Source: Phycisphaeraceae bacterium (GTDB lineage: Bacteria > Planctomycetota > Phycisphaerae > Phycisphaerales > UBA1924). From it: DNA of 64,000 bases. Where the stretch lies: NCBI GenBank assembly GCA_019636655.1, contig JAHBXB010000001.1:434001-498000 (forward strand). Reading direction: 5' to 3'. Position numbers and translations under genes: made by a program. Of the stretch, positions 33,983 to 57,281 are shown one piece after another. Position 1 is the stretch's first letter. Each line of letters begins with the position of its first letter. The notes beneath the pieces were generated by a model. The model did no database searches. It worked only from the letters and a program-made list of their open reading frames with translations, and was not told the DNA's origin.

Positions 33983-35935
33983 ATGCCCGATCGCCCATGG
34001 TACGAATCCGCTTTGAACCGCCTTCCCAGTCGTCCGGAGGGTGGAAGCGATGTGGTCGACAGCGAGCGTGCCCCTATGGGCGCGGTGCTCTTCGAGTTCT
34101 CATGGGAGGTCTGCAACCAACTCGGCGGTATCTACCAGGTTCTCCGGTCGAAAGCCAAGCGGATGGCCGAGCGGTGGCGCAATCGGTACTTCCTGGTTGG
34201 TCCCTACGTCGAGGCGCGGGCGGCGTTGGAGTTTGAGCCGAAGAAGCCGACGGGATGGATCGCCAAGGTGGTCGATGACCTCGGCGCACAGGGAGTCATC
34301 GCTCACCACGGACGGTGGCTCATCCCCGGACGGCCGCGAGTGCTGCTGCTGGAGTTCAGGCCCGGGCCGGCGGAGCTTCAGGAACTGAAGTACTTCGTAT
34401 GGGAACACCATGGCATCGAGACTCCGGGTGATGTGTGGATGATCGATGGCGTCGTCGCCCTCGCCGAGGCGAGCCGGCGGCTCTTGCACGCTGTATCGCG
34501 CCGTTGGGCGGCGGCGAGTGAGGCCGATGCCGGCGCCGATGAGGGGCACCCATCGACGAGCGGGCCGTTGCGGCCCGGCCGTCGGGTCGTGGCGCATTTC
34601 CACGAGTGGCTGGCGGGTCTGGCGATTCCGATGATCCGCCGCGATGGGCTGCCCGTGGCGACGGTCTTCACCACGCACGCGACGATTCTCGGCAGGTCGA
34701 TGGCGTGGAACGATGAAGCGTTCTACGACCACCTGCCTTGGGTGAACCAGGCCGAGGAGGCTGGGCGGTTCAACGTCCGATGCCAGCACGCAATCGAGCG
34801 GGCGGCGGCGCATGGGTCGGACGTGTTCACCACCGTCTCGCCGATTACGGGGGAGGAGTGCACGCATCTGCTCGGGCGCGGGCCGGACCTGATCCTGCCG
34901 AACGGGATCAGTGTCGAACAGTCTACGGTGAGCCACGAGTTTCAGAACGCGCACGGGCAGTTCAAGGACCGGATCCACCGGTTCGTTATGGGGCACTTCT
35001 TCCCGAGCTACTCGTTCGATCTGGACCGAACCCTCTATTTCTTTACGAGCGGCCGATTCGAGCCTCGGAACAAAGGATTCGATCTCTGCCTGGAAGCGAT
35101 GGCCCGGCTCAACGCCGAACTCAAGGCGTCGAATCTCGGGGTGACCGTGGTCTTCTTCGTCGTGACACAGCGTCCGGTCGTGTCGCTCCAGCCGCGGGCG
35201 CTCGAGAACCGGGGGATCCTGCGTGAACTCCGCGCTGCATCGGATCGGATTGCCGGTGATATCGGAGAGAAGCTGTTCCGGGCGGCCGCATCGGGCTCTT
35301 ACACGCGCCTGGACGACCTGGCGGACGAGTACTGGGCGTTGAGGTTGCGGCGGACGCTGGCGGCGATGCGTTCAGATCGGCCGCCGCTGCTGTGCACGCA
35401 CGTGCTGGAGGACGAAGCCAACGATCCGGTGCTGAATCACATCCGCTCGCTCTGGTTTGCCAACAGCGCGGATGATCCGGTGAAGATCGTGTACCACCCG
35501 GCGTTCATCAACCCGGCGAATCCCCTGTGGGGCCTGGAGTACGAGCAGTTTGTTCGAGGGTGCCACCTGGGCGTGTTCCCGAGCGCGTACGAGCCGTGGG
35601 GCTACACGCCGGTGGAGTGCGTGATTGGCGGCGTGCCGGCGATCACGAGCGATCTGGCGGGCTTCGGAAGGTACGTCGAGGAGTACTACGGGGATCACGA
35701 TCGATGGGGGCTCCGCGTGCTTAATCGCCGCGGCCGCTCCTATTCGGACGCCGCGGCGGACCTCGCCCGGATGCTCCTTGCCTACTGCCGGCTCGACCGC
35801 CGCGAGCGGGTCCTGCTGAGAAACGAGGTTCAGCAGCGATCCTGGGCATTCGATTGGGGCATGCTTGGTCAGGCCTACGACTGGGCGCACGACCTGGCGA
35901 TGGCGCGAGCCGCGGCGGGCGCGGGCGGGCAGTAG
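33983..35935 (+). CDS. Glycogen synthase, eukaryotic (GT3) type
   Basis: 650 residues matching animal and fungal glycogen [starch] synthase, not bacterial GlgA. Visible GT3 landmarks: FEFSWEVCNQLGGIYQVLRSKA near the start, YFVWEHHGIETPGDVW, VAHFHEWLAGLAI, TTHATILGR, ILPNGISV, the sugar-donor region FTSGRFEPRNKGFDLCLEA, and SAYEPWGYTPVECVIGGVPAITSDLAGFG, where the glutamates of the E-x7-E motif lie. GT3 enzymes use UDP-glucose and in eukaryotes depend on glucose-6-phosphate and phosphorylation; no such regulatory tail is obvious here. It is divergent from dps and converges with the next gene (6 bases). It is the only storage-polysaccharide enzyme in the window. Confidence 0.93.
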   Translation: MPDRPWYESALNRLPSRPEGGSDVVDSERAPMGAVLFEFSWEVCNQLGGIYQVLRSKAKRMAERWRNRYFLVGPYVEARAALEFEPKKPTGWIAKVVDDLGAQGVIAHHGRWLIPGRPRVLLLEFRPGPAELQELKYFVWEHHGIETPGDVWMIDGVVALAEASRRLLHAVSRRWAAASEADAGADEGHPSTSGPLRPGRRVVAHFHEWLAGLAIPMIRRDGLPVATVFTTHATILGRSMAWNDEAFYDHLPWVNQAEEAGRFNVRCQHAIERAAAHGSDVFTTVSPITGEECTHLLGRGPDLILPNGISVEQSTVSHEFQNAHGQFKDRIHRFVMGHFFPSYSFDLDRTLYFFTSGRFEPRNKGFDLCLEAMARLNAELKASNLGVTVVFFVVTQRPVVSLQPRALENRGILRELRAASDRIAGDIGEKLFRAAASGSYTRLDDLADEYWALRLRRTLAAMRSDRPPLLCTHVLEDEANDPVLNHIRSLWFANSADDPVKIVYHPAFINPANPLWGLEYEQFVRGCHLGVFPSAYEPWGYTPVECVIGGVPAITSDLAGFGRYVEEYYGDHDRWGLRVLNRRGRSYSDAAADLARMLLAYCRLDRRERVLLRNEVQQRSWAFDWGMLGQAYDWAHDLAMARAAAGAGGQ

Positions 35936-54474: not shown

Positions 54475-55767
54475 CTAGTTGAGCGGGCGGCAGACCCACC
54501 CGGTCTTGCCGTCCACCTCGACGCTGGCGAGCACGTGGACCCTGACATCCGATTCCAGCAGGCCGCGAACGTCCCGCGGCTCATCGGTGAGCAGGTGCTG
54601 CACGACGCCGGACTCGGCCGTGACTCCTTTGACCGCCATGGCGATCAGCGAGGCATTTGCTGTTGCCCATGCCGAAGCACTCAGCAGCGACCCGGTCACG
54701 TCCCCCGCGCCCGCAGTTCTGTGACCAAGCGCGTGGAGGCTGCCGGATTCCCCTACGGCGAAGTCGATGCTCGGTGCACCCGGGCAGCGGATCGGGAGGG
54801 GCGTCAGCCCTGGAATGTGCCGTGCAAGAGACGCCGGTATTTCGGCCGTCGAGCGGTCTGTGGGTGCCGCGGCTGTATGGGGCACCGGGGGCTCGATGCG
54901 AGCGTCCTCATGCGTGTTCGGCGTTGAGCCGGCCACGGCAAGACCGATGAGATCCATGACGCGGTCGGCCCCACCCTCGACCTTTCCGCTGAACAGCATC
55001 GTCGACGATCGGCCGGGTTTGATCCTGGAAGCCCCCGGCGCTCTCCGAAGCGGACGTCGCACAAAGGTTCGAACGGCGCTCGAGATCTTCGAGTAGGCCT
55101 GGTCCGCGGCGTCGTCGGACGAACCCATCACCGCGACCCGCACCATCGCCCCCAACGGGCGTTCCGCCTCCAGTTCGGCGCCTTCGCCTCCAGCCAGGCG
55201 GGCAATCGCCCGGTAGGCACCGACGACCGCGACCTCGTCCGCGCTGGTCAGAAGCGTGACCCAGCGGACCTCGGGCCGCTGGGACAGCCCCGGCTCGTCG
55301 GTCTCGTCCGCCCGGATGATCCACCGGTCAGAGATCGCCGCGGCTTTGGCAAGAGCGTCCTCAATGCCCGTGCCCTGAATGCTGGTCGCACAACCGACCA
55401 ACTCGACGACAACGTGACCGCTGCGAACCTGCACAAAGCAGATCGTCGATTCCTCGGCCTCGGCGGCCGTGCGGGCATACTGCGACGCCCAGGCAGAGCC
55501 AAGCACCGGAAGGTGGCCCATGACCAGAAGCTCGATCCCCGCGGCCGCCTCCGACCCGTCGATTGCAGGTGACGGTCCGTCGGTTCGCTGCACTCCTCGG
55601 TTGGATCGTCCGCCCACTTCGCCGAGAAACAGGTCGGTCAGCGCGTCGTAAGCCTCCTCGGGCATGTCCCCGATACCCCAGTCGCGCTTCGGCGACACCG
55701 CCCCCCCGGGTCCGACTCGGCCGAGAATGTCCAGATCTCCCTCGTTCTTCGGCATCGTCGTGCTCAT
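54475..55767 (-). CDS. Unrecognised protein encoded next to the ParA-glycogen-binding fusion
   Basis: 430 residues, no family recognised. It reads as a Gly/Asp-rich N-terminus, then a globular core (GIELLVMGHLPVLGSAWASQYA ... ICFVQVRSGHVVVELVG; ADEVAVVGAYRAIARLAG; VRVAVMGSSDDAADQAYSKISSAVRTFV) of alternating strands and helices like a Rossmann-type fold, and a C-terminal part with SIDFAVGESGSLHALGHR. No P-loop, membrane helix or signal peptide is obvious. GGAGG is 6 bases before the ATG. It starts 35 bases after the ParA-like gene and is its only close neighbour in that direction, so it may be a partner (adaptor or regulator) of that ATPase. This is inference from position. Confidence 0.5.
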   Translation of the reverse strand: MSTTMPKNEGDLDILGRVGPGGAVSPKRDWGIGDMPEEAYDALTDLFLGEVGGRSNRGVQRTDGPSPAIDGSEAAAGIELLVMGHLPVLGSAWASQYARTAAEAEESTICFVQVRSGHVVVELVGCATSIQGTGIEDALAKAAAISDRWIIRADETDEPGLSQRPEVRWVTLLTSADEVAVVGAYRAIARLAGGEGAELEAERPLGAMVRVAVMGSSDDAADQAYSKISSAVRTFVRRPLRRAPGASRIKPGRSSTMLFSGKVEGGADRVMDLIGLAVAGSTPNTHEDARIEPPVPHTAAAPTDRSTAEIPASLARHIPGLTPLPIRCPGAPSIDFAVGESGSLHALGHRTAGAGDVTGSLLSASAWATANASLIAMAVKGVTAESGVVQHLLTDEPRDVRGLLESDVRVHVLASVEVDGKTGWVCRPLN

Positions 55768-55802
55768 GCGAGCCTCCGGCCCACCCCCTCGGGTCGTCCT
55801 CA

Positions 55803-57281
55803 TCAGTCCCTGCGGATGACGACCACGCTGTTCACGTCGCCGTACGGGTTCGTGACGGAAATCGGGTTGAACGGATCCGCCACCCAGCGCCCGTCGACCA
55901 CGAGGCGGTACTGAACGGTCCCAGTCCGCAGCGGCAGGCACAGCTCGAACACCCCGAGTTCGCGATTGAGGCGCATCACCGACGCCTCGGCGGACCACCC
56001 GTTGAAGTCACCCGCAATGCTGATGACTCGGCCGAGCGTTGCTGGTTGCACAAACCATACCCCCTCGCTATCCATGCTCACGCCCAGCTTGCGGGCAAGC
56101 CCTGTGGGGGTCTCGATGTGTGCTTGTTGGGCCGCGCGGTCCGGGGCCGCCGCAGGCTGGGGCGATGCGTGCGATACCGGGATCGACTCCGTGACAGGGC
56201 TGTCGCACTTGGCTTCGATAATGACCGATGGCGTTTCGCCAATCTGGATGGTTGGAATCGGTCCGCCCTTCGGGGCGAGCGATCGCTGGCGATCCACTCG
56301 CTTCTGGAGCTTCCGTGCCTTGTCCAACACGTCGGCCGAGCGGCTGGAAGCCTCGACTTCGGCTGGGCCCGGTACGCTCTCAGGGGCCGCGACTTCGAAT
56401 GCCAGCGCCTGCTCCGCCACGCCCGGAACGATGTGCACCGGGATCGGATCCTCGATCGGCGGCGAGATGAGCGGCGCCGCCAGCGTCCCATCACCGATGA
56501 GCCATGCTGCGAGCGCGGCGTAGTCCGCAGCGCCGACTGACCCGGGGGCGTACTCGCAGATCGGCTGCCCGAATGAGGCCGCCTCTTTCAGGCCGGGGTC
56601 AAGCCTGATGACGCACGGGGCAACCTTTCCCGGAAACCGCCGATGCAACTCCTCAAGCACGTCGCGGGCGAGAACCCCATCCTCGTCATGCATGGTTGCC
56701 AGGAGACGATACCTAGGGGATACACCCAGTCTCTTGGCAATCGACTTGATTGTGCTGATCTGCTTCCCAGCGCCCTGCAGCGCAAAGAACCCTGTTTCGA
56801 CCGGAATGAGCACCTCGTCGGCCGAGACCAGCGCGTTGTATGCCAGCAGGCCGATCGCCGGAGAACAGTCAACAAAGCAGTGTTGGTAGCCGCCGTGGGC
56901 GGCAAGGAGCTCCAAGGCGGCCTTCAGTCGGCCTTCGGCCCCTTCCATGCCAGCGAGCGAACCGCGAGGAGCCTCAAGCCCGGCAAGCTTCATCGTGCTC
57001 GGCGCCAGGTCGAGATTCCGGCCCACCCGCCACAGGAGCCGCGAAGGATCGATCGCCGTCCGCTTGGCACCGGGCTCACCGGAGGCAGCCAGCATCGCAT
57101 CGCCAATGGTCAGGTCGATGCGTTGCTCCGGGATCGCCAGCCCGGCGGCGCAGTGCCCCTGGGGATCCATGTCGACGAGCAGTGTCTTGCGACCCTCGGC
57201 CGCGAACGCACCGGCAAGATTGATCGCCGTTGTGGTCTTGCCACACCCGCCCTTCTGGTTGATGATCGCGATCGTTCTCAC
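55803..57281 (-). CDS. ParA/MinD-type ATPase fused to an AMPK-beta-like glycogen-binding domain (CBM48)
   Basis: 492 residues. Residues 1-260 are a ParA/MinD-like deviant Walker ATPase: KGGCGKTT at 10-17 with signature Lys10 and catalytic Lys15, LLVDMDPQGHCAAGL, and CFVDCSPAIGLLAYNAL. A linker follows (about 270-400). Residues 410-492 match the AMPK-beta glycogen-binding domain: IAGDFNGWS (Trp429) and VQYRLVVDGRWVADP (Trp466), then GDVNSVVVI. Both tryptophans that stack on glucose in AMPK are conserved. ParA-like ATPases place DNA or particles along the nucleoid or membrane; the fusion suggests that a polysaccharide, such as glycogen, is the cargo or the signal. GTG start with AGGGG before it; the ORF continues upstream only as low-quality sequence. 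Confidence 0.82.
   Translation of the reverse strand: MRTIAIINQKGGCGKTTTAINLAGAFAAEGRKTLLVDMDPQGHCAAGLAIPEQRIDLTIGDAMLAASGEPGAKRTAIDPSRLLWRVGRNLDLAPSTMKLAGLEAPRGSLAGMEGAEGRLKAALELLAAHGGYQHCFVDCSPAIGLLAYNALVSADEVLIPVETGFFALQGAGKQISTIKSIAKRLGVSPRYRLLATMHDEDGVLARDVLEELHRRFPGKVAPCVIRLDPGLKEAASFGQPICEYAPGSVGAADYAALAAWLIGDGTLAAPLISPPIEDPIPVHIVPGVAEQALAFEVAAPESVPGPAEVEASSRSADVLDKARKLQKRVDRQRSLAPKGGPIPTIQIGETPSVIIEAKCDSPVTESIPVSHASPQPAAAPDRAAQQAHIETPTGLARKLGVSMDSEGVWFVQPATLGRVISIAGDFNGWSAEASVMRLNRELGVFELCLPLRTGTVQYRLVVDGRWVADPFNPISVTNPYGDVNSVVVIRRD

Follow-up and report, generated by a model that had tools for sequence, protein, structure and literature searches.

Known cargo-positioning systems, McdA/McdB and PomZ/PomX among them, are built from a ParA-type ATPase and a second protein dedicated to it. 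In the A/D ATPases, it is this partner, not the ATPase, that makes the link to the cargo, and the partner N-terminus is disordered and positively charged; the partners are extremely diverse, and many of the ATPases are termed orphans (PMC10241942). A different arrangement appears to be encoded in the genome of a Phycisphaeraceae bacterium (GCA_019636655.1). Within a stretch of 64,000 nucleotides of contig JAHBXB010000001.1 (positions 434,001 to 498,000; “the window” below), a ParA-type ATPase itself ends in a carbohydrate-binding module (CBM) of the kind present in the beta subunit of AMPK, and its gene is followed closely by that of a partner. To judge from sequence and predicted structures, this ParA-CBM fusion, together with its putative pseudo-enzyme partner, may tie a cell-organising switch to stored sugar. 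We know of no ParA system with a polysaccharide as its cargo or input, and whether bacteria actively place or count glycogen granules is, to our knowledge, an open question; in open-access texts (few subscription journals, no bioRxiv), the matches listed contained no report of a ParA fused to a glycogen-binding domain or of ParA-type glycogen handling. The pair, its predicted domains and one glycogen gene lie at the following positions of the window.

55803–57281, minus strand: ParA-type ATPase with a C-terminal AMPK-beta-type CBM, 492 amino acids (open reading frame, Pfam)
56496–57281, minus strand: ATPase domain, residues 1–262, with the deviant Walker A NQKGGCGKTT, DMDPQ and DCSP (Pfam, PDB alignments, residue counts)
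56292–56348, minus strand: conserved basic linker motif, about residues 312–330, consensus SRAAELAxRAR (motif hidden Markov model, HMM)
55812–56033, minus strand: AMPK1_CBM domain, residues 417–490, with predicted stacking residues W429 and W466 (Pfam, PDB alignment)
54475–55767, minus strand: partner gene, 430 amino acids, ATG at 55767, 35 bases downstream of the ParA gene (open reading frame, recurrence beside ParA)
55621–55659, minus strand: conserved N-terminal helix of the partner, residues 37–49, consensus DALADLFLG, in a low-confidence tail (alignments; helix at 37–48 in the model)
54913–55539, minus strand: predicted FlhG/FleN-like MinD fold without a P-loop, residues 77–285, with GHLPVxxxxW replacing Walker A (AlphaFold, Foldseek, VIA-align)
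54478–54816, minus strand: probable PD-(D/E)XK-like domain without (D/E)xK, residues 318–430 (AlphaFold, fold search, column counts)
34094–35914, plus strand: GT3 glycogen synthase, context only, about 19 kb away (PF05693, E 3.2e-171)

The first gene, read from a GTG at 57281 to a stop codon at 55803–55805, had been called a deviant-Walker ParA-type ATPase in the initial annotation, and this call holds. AAA_31 matches residues 1–185 (E 3.8e-38); NCBIfam gave no match above its cut-off among the 25 listed. The ATPase domain aligns to solved ParA-type chains with E values of 1.4e-40 to 2e-30, including 8ray_B (1.4e-40) and Soj (1wcv, 2.5e-33). In alignments of relatives (residue counts here and for the CBM include duplicate sequences), the KGGxGKT Walker A with its signature lysine is kept, K10 and K15 being invariant in 161 ParA rows, and C13 within it is found in 149 of 159. 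The DxDPQ motif is represented by an invariant D37 and by D39 (159/160), the catalytic aspartate, whose position is occupied by alanine in the chains solved as 2bek and 8ray; the Walker B residue D138 is present in 161/161 rows. By these residues, the domain has a complete predicted ParA active site. The DNA-contact arginines of Soj, which we take to be R189 and R218, are poorly kept (arginine at position 201 in 48 of 161 rows, lysine or arginine at position 230 in 93), but a basic residue at 232 is retained in 160 of 161. The same genome also encodes a separate classical KGGVGKT ParA (L002) and other MinD-type proteins, and has four ParB_N matches elsewhere.

The C-terminus had been described as a full AMPK-beta-type glycogen-binding domain with both tryptophans, beginning at residue 410. 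The assignment and the tryptophans stand, but the start was slightly early: the AMPK1_CBM profile (PF16561, E 1.6e-10; 41.5 bits, cut-off 26.8) begins at 417. It is the sole match of this family in the genome. The domain can be aligned with the solved chains of AMPK beta-2 (E 9.6e-10) and beta-1 (6e-9). In the printed alignments, which are with beta-2, W429, R459, W466 and N484 stand where the beta motifs SFNNW, YKFFVDG, DGQW and NN have W, K, W and N; the AMPK residues are presumably W100, K126, W133 and N150. Both stacking tryptophans are well kept among CBM rows (W429 in 141 and W466 in 135 of 145), as are Y458 and D469 (145/145 each), arginine or lysine at 459 (140/145) and N484 (126/144). 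The domain is thus an AMPK-beta-type CBM with predicted glucan-stacking residues. The linker that joins it to the ATPase domain has a median length of 124 residues in CBM-intact proteins and, as read from the alignments, is long and variable with a conserved basic motif: the SRAAELAxRAR motif HMM matches 86 of 87 CBM-intact proteins, 13 of 20 in which the tryptophan site is eroded and 14 of 24 in which the CBM is absent. Apart from ParA, frames of about 105–135 amino acids with a strong AMPK1_CBM match occur in several order genomes, at G073:C71:14516, G104:C10:1116034, G112:C86:15013 and G131:C21:106504 (L050, L052, L053 and L069).

The pair is not a local peculiarity; it is widespread in the order and also occurs in the seven further families of the class that were examined. 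In the order set of 151 genomes, a single-sequence search gave partner matches in 126, and the CBM family matched in 136, some of these matches being other proteins. In a first survey of 41 neighbourhoods (40 fetched, plus the window), ParA and a partner-family reading frame were present at all 41 loci and the CBM was on ParA at 33. A same-strand partner adjoins ParA in 129 of the 131 order genomes in which ParA is complete (G006 and G015 are without it), separated by a median of 21 bases as counted by the first start codon. The state of the CBM was typed in 132 genomes (46/46 of family f1, 38/45 of f2 and 48/60 of the remaining order families) from HMM-aligned tryptophan columns; these replaced a regular-expression typing, which had misjudged G013, G071, G107 and G146. 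The CBM is absent in 24 of the 132, and 23 of these 24 keep the partner, G015 being the exception.

In the class as a whole, partner-profile matches were found in 107 of 298 genomes, weak matches to other MinD-type proteins included. Beyond the order, ParA was examined at 23 loci in seven families (f9–f14 and f20). A CBM with both tryptophans is present at all 23, and a partner-family reading frame adjoins ParA at 19; the four loci without it are those of f20. At L266 in family f18, the best ParA match carries no CBM, a match so much weaker that it may be another gene. In a named collection, the partner stands beside ParA in 77 of the best 80 relatives; the list favours close kin, and two of the three loci lacking it stop at a contig edge. 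These relatives are labelled planctomycetes, most of them Phycisphaerae, except L135 (Leptolyngbya), L138 (bacterium) and L173 (uncultured bacterium). Among the best matches outside the class, one of 20 fetched ParA proteins has a CBM. That one, L348 (1107–2300), is a KGGVGKT-type ParA ending in an AMPK-type CBM, with no recognised partner in the 3.7 kb fetched.

What kind of protein is the partner? It had been noted as an unrecognised gene 35 bases downstream, and so it remains: with E values up to 1 allowed, neither Pfam nor NCBIfam has a family that matches the window's partner, Pfam on 47 of its relatives returns nine chance-level single matches (best 0.015, none to ParB) and PADLOC finds nothing consistent. 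An AlphaFold model built from a 47-row alignment has two confident domains (about residues 77–285 and 318–430) and a low-confidence tail holding one helix. For the first domain, Foldseek finds FlhG (4rz3, E 9.5e-6), and VIA-align places FlhG (4rz3, Z 11.8, root-mean-square deviation 3.5 over 159 residues) and FleN (Z 10.8) ahead of the next fold, SRP54 (Z 9.0), which points to a MinD-like fold. Walker A is present in none of 160 aligned rows, its pattern occurring in only 2 of 261 whole partner reading frames, at residue 41 of the tail in both, and the N-terminal DQAxxLR of FlhG in 1 of 261 (duplicates included). The partner profile also matches, at 1e-8, two proteins that Pfam calls AAA_31/CbiA. 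Of 129 partner tails, 103 carry a net negative charge, 9 are neutral and 17 positive. A likeness between its DALADLFLG helix and the EIDAL motif of flagellar C-ring proteins (PMC12826062) was looked for and left as a guess.

The second domain, folded alone, is predicted with a pLDDT (predicted local distance difference test) of 94. Foldseek gives no match under E 0.001; the top rows of VIA-align are mostly PD-(D/E)XK nucleases, among them EndoMS (Z 7.9, root-mean-square deviation 3.1 over 101 residues), a Pyrococcus repair endonuclease (7.7), PaqCI (7.1) and the XisH family (6.5). Because a Z below 8 may reflect a common arrangement, this fold is probable rather than certain. No conserved acid-x-Lys follows D339/G342/H345 in 69 partner rows, so that the catalytic D plus (D/E)xK set of these nucleases is lacking. 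C328, H345 and H391, with H or Y at 411, occur in 58 of the 69; the conserved Cys and His could coordinate a metal rather than serve as a nuclease centre. If the models are right, the partner would be a fusion of two inactivated enzymes, an FlhG/FleN-like pseudo-ATPase and a PD-(D/E)XK-like domain. In family f10, the partner (L217 5465–6139 and L218 5925–6590) is only about 220 amino acids long and covers the pseudo-ATPase domain alone.

If the CBM binds a glucan, its fate may follow the genes for glycogen. The GT3 glycogen synthase that had been reported in the window is indeed there, and across the order the CBM tryptophans track synthase genes only, not phosphorylase, an association that rests mostly on one clade. 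Typed as intact, eroded or absent, the CBM counts are 39/2/5 in f1, 3/17/18 in f2 and 46/1/1 in the other order families. GT3 or GlgA is present in 63 and missing from 25 genomes with both tryptophans, as compared with 5 and 39 when the CBM is eroded or lost (Fisher 2e-11, a test that ignores kinship); the observed phi of 0.58 was reached in 2 and 3 of 1000 simulations of either trait along the ParA tree. GlgA was counted only in G013 and G111 (PF08323, E 7e-71 and 9e-77, respectively), and G106 was excluded from the GT3 set (E 5.6e-4, under the cut-off). Family f2 has no GT3 match, and its only two genomes with a genuine GlgA, G013 and G111, are both among its three intact ones. In 17 other f2 genomes, the tryptophan site is lost while the profile still recognises the CBM fold; a site that erodes ahead of its fold suggests that the ligand was lost.

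Other markers were less useful. PF08323 (GT5-like) matches occur in 129 of the 151 order genomes, but outside G111 and G013 those listed are weak (about 1e-16 or worse), and three that were inspected as GlgA candidates proved to be GT4/GT5-like and under every NCBIfam cut-off listed. The GlgB model TIGR01515 is too narrow, being above its cut-off in 18 of 151 genomes only. Similar weak starch-synthase-like glycosyltransferase matches occur in much of the order; two proteins of this kind, L278 (1294–2934, on C1 of the window's own genome) and L279 (1154–2638), have about 500 amino acids, a starch-synthase-like N-terminus and a GT4 C-terminus, and stay below the NCBIfam cut-offs listed. Such a glycosyltransferase is perhaps an alpha-glucan synthase.

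The explanation we prefer, tentatively and at a little less than an even chance, is a two-gene ParA-type switch whose ATPase carries an alpha-glucan tether or input. ParA would dimerise on ATP; the CBM would hold the dimer on glycogen or another alpha-glucan; the partner, a pseudo-ATPase that shares the ParA superfold and exposes a conserved helix, would dock on the ParA dimer and, once docked, control hydrolysis or relay the state of ParA. On this view, a more basic function of ParA and its partner, one that survives in lineages with a decayed CBM, would be tethered to glycogen or take it as an input: since the ATPase is kept while the CBM and the partner can each go, the glucan domain would be an attachment or input rather than the reason for the switch.

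Several observations weigh against this explanation. All four f20 loci (L256, L257, L259 and L260) encode the ATPase-CBM without a recognised adjoining partner in a search that covered the next-door position only, and the fusion of strain ZRK32 (L178) likewise lacks one, with no forward reading frame above 150 amino acids in the next 2 kb; either the partner is not always needed or it is located elsewhere. The idea that the partner always accompanies ParA, raised at the outset, nearly holds within the order, at 129 of 131 genomes, but not in f20. A comparison of profiles found no similarity between the partner and its own ParA (probability 0.2), and the notion that it is a divergent copy was dropped. 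The synthase association is mostly one between families: within f1, Fisher p is 0.41, and f2 is one clade. Both tryptophans are intact in 25 genomes without GT3 or GlgA, and GT3 is present in five non-intact genomes. Finally, the alpha-glucan phosphorylase model TIGR02094 shows no association with the CBM among 64 typed genomes (36 with and 5 without it when intact, 20 and 3 in the rest; p 1.0). PF00343 (1e-20, 76/151) had seemed to follow the CBM (phi 0.46, reached in 21 and 28 of 1000 simulations), and it was dropped together with a combined marker (phi 0.69) because TIGR02094 is the better model. The objection that the fusion might be found where no glycogen is made has a mixed answer: the 25 of 88 intact genomes lack both GT3 and a genuine GlgA, but TIGR02094 exceeds its cut-off in 256 of the 298 genomes of the class, including 16 of 20 sampled from f2, and the GT5-like match is as widespread as noted above.

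Does the switch exist to place glycogen? Of the two options in the initial annotation, placing or partitioning granules and coupling glycogen to another ParA function, the second is favoured and pure placement is weakened, because 23 genomes keep the ATPase and the partner without the CBM and f20 has the ATPase-CBM without an adjoining partner. Dedicated granule positioning, in which granules would be the ParA cargo, spaced and shared at division, with the CBM anchoring ParA to granules and the partner, perhaps via its nuclease-like domain, providing the DNA or nucleoid side, is in our estimate unlikely. It would fit the membership of the ATPase in the cargo-positioning class (PMC10241942), the retention of the CBM site where GT3 or GlgA is retained, and a nuclease-like fold that could bind DNA. 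However, the systems described in the same source link cargo through a partner with a positive tail, the opposite of the charge of most tails here, and the poor conservation of the presumed Soj DNA contacts counts against it as well, with the basic residue at 232 weighing the other way.

The CBM might instead have no need of glucan. A beta-sandwich that binds protein or phosphate, like some E-set domains, with its conservation reflecting the fold, would account for the intact tryptophans in genomes without GT3 or GlgA and for the indifference of phosphorylase, and AMPK's own CBM also contacts the kinase; yet conservation is high at the tryptophans and at N484, and the 17 f2 genomes that lost the tryptophan site kept a recognisable fold. 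We regard this alternative as distinctly unlikely. More improbable still is an ordinary orphan ParA that regulates an unrelated process, such as cell division or envelope growth, and that the CBM merely retains or buffers on a storage polymer. The ATPase-partner core does outlive the CBM, and no named neighbour points to glycogen: of ten conserved neighbour clusters scanned, which change between families, six have names (DHQ synthase, M19 peptidase, DUF2752, Maf, GMP synthase and ClpX), four have no Pfam match and none is a glycogen gene; beside the window's pair are what we take, by eye, to be aroB, panD and rsfS. Against this, nothing positive points to another process.

A broader proposal, which we regard as doubtful, is that one bacterial class runs a ParA cycle directly on glycogen, with the ATPase itself anchored to the polymer and a dead-FlhG/dead-nuclease partner reading its nucleotide state; the outcome would be spacing of glycogen, its sharing at division or its sensing. 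Were this true, bacteria would have an equivalent of the AMPK-beta idea with a positioning ATPase as its base. The hypothesis is sharp in that a ParA domain and a predicted glucan-binding domain share one chain, and the lineages without the tryptophans or the CBM are natural mutants. The partner, for its part, suggests that, beside an active ParA, a pseudo-enzyme regulator can be made by reusing a MinD-like ATPase and a nuclease fold.

How does this pair compare with the systems it resembles? The likeness to chromosomal ParA/Soj (1wcv, 6iub, 8ray) extends over the whole ATPase domain, with its deviant Walker A and catalytic Asp; the window protein differs in the Walker A Cys, in the added linker and CBM, and in not keeping the presumed DNA-contact arginines. 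Also unlike ParABS, in which the partner is of the ParB type, the partner here is predicted to fold as an FlhG-like and a nuclease-like domain and has no ParB match. With AMPK beta (1z0m, 2f15), the window's ATPase shares the CBM and its glucan-stacking residues, but the host is an ATPase rather than a kinase subunit, arginine replaces the lysine of beta, and a conserved DPxN stands in the position of beta's DPSE. FlhG/FleN (4rz3, 5j1j, 7ejw) resemble the partner in the fold of its first domain (Z 11.8 to 9.9); unlike them, the partner has no Walker A, has an extra C-terminal domain and is encoded next to ParA. The PD-(D/E)XK nucleases EndoMS and XisH probably share the fold of its last domain, in which conserved Cys and His are found instead of a conserved (D/E)xK. 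McdA/McdB, PomZ/PomX and other cargo-positioning pairs have in common with the window a ParA-type ATPase and a dedicated, family-specific partner. In place of the positively charged, disordered partner N-terminus of the A/D ATPase pairs, there is a low-confidence, mostly net negative tail on a putative pseudo-ATPase, and the putative cargo-binding domain is part of the ATPase.

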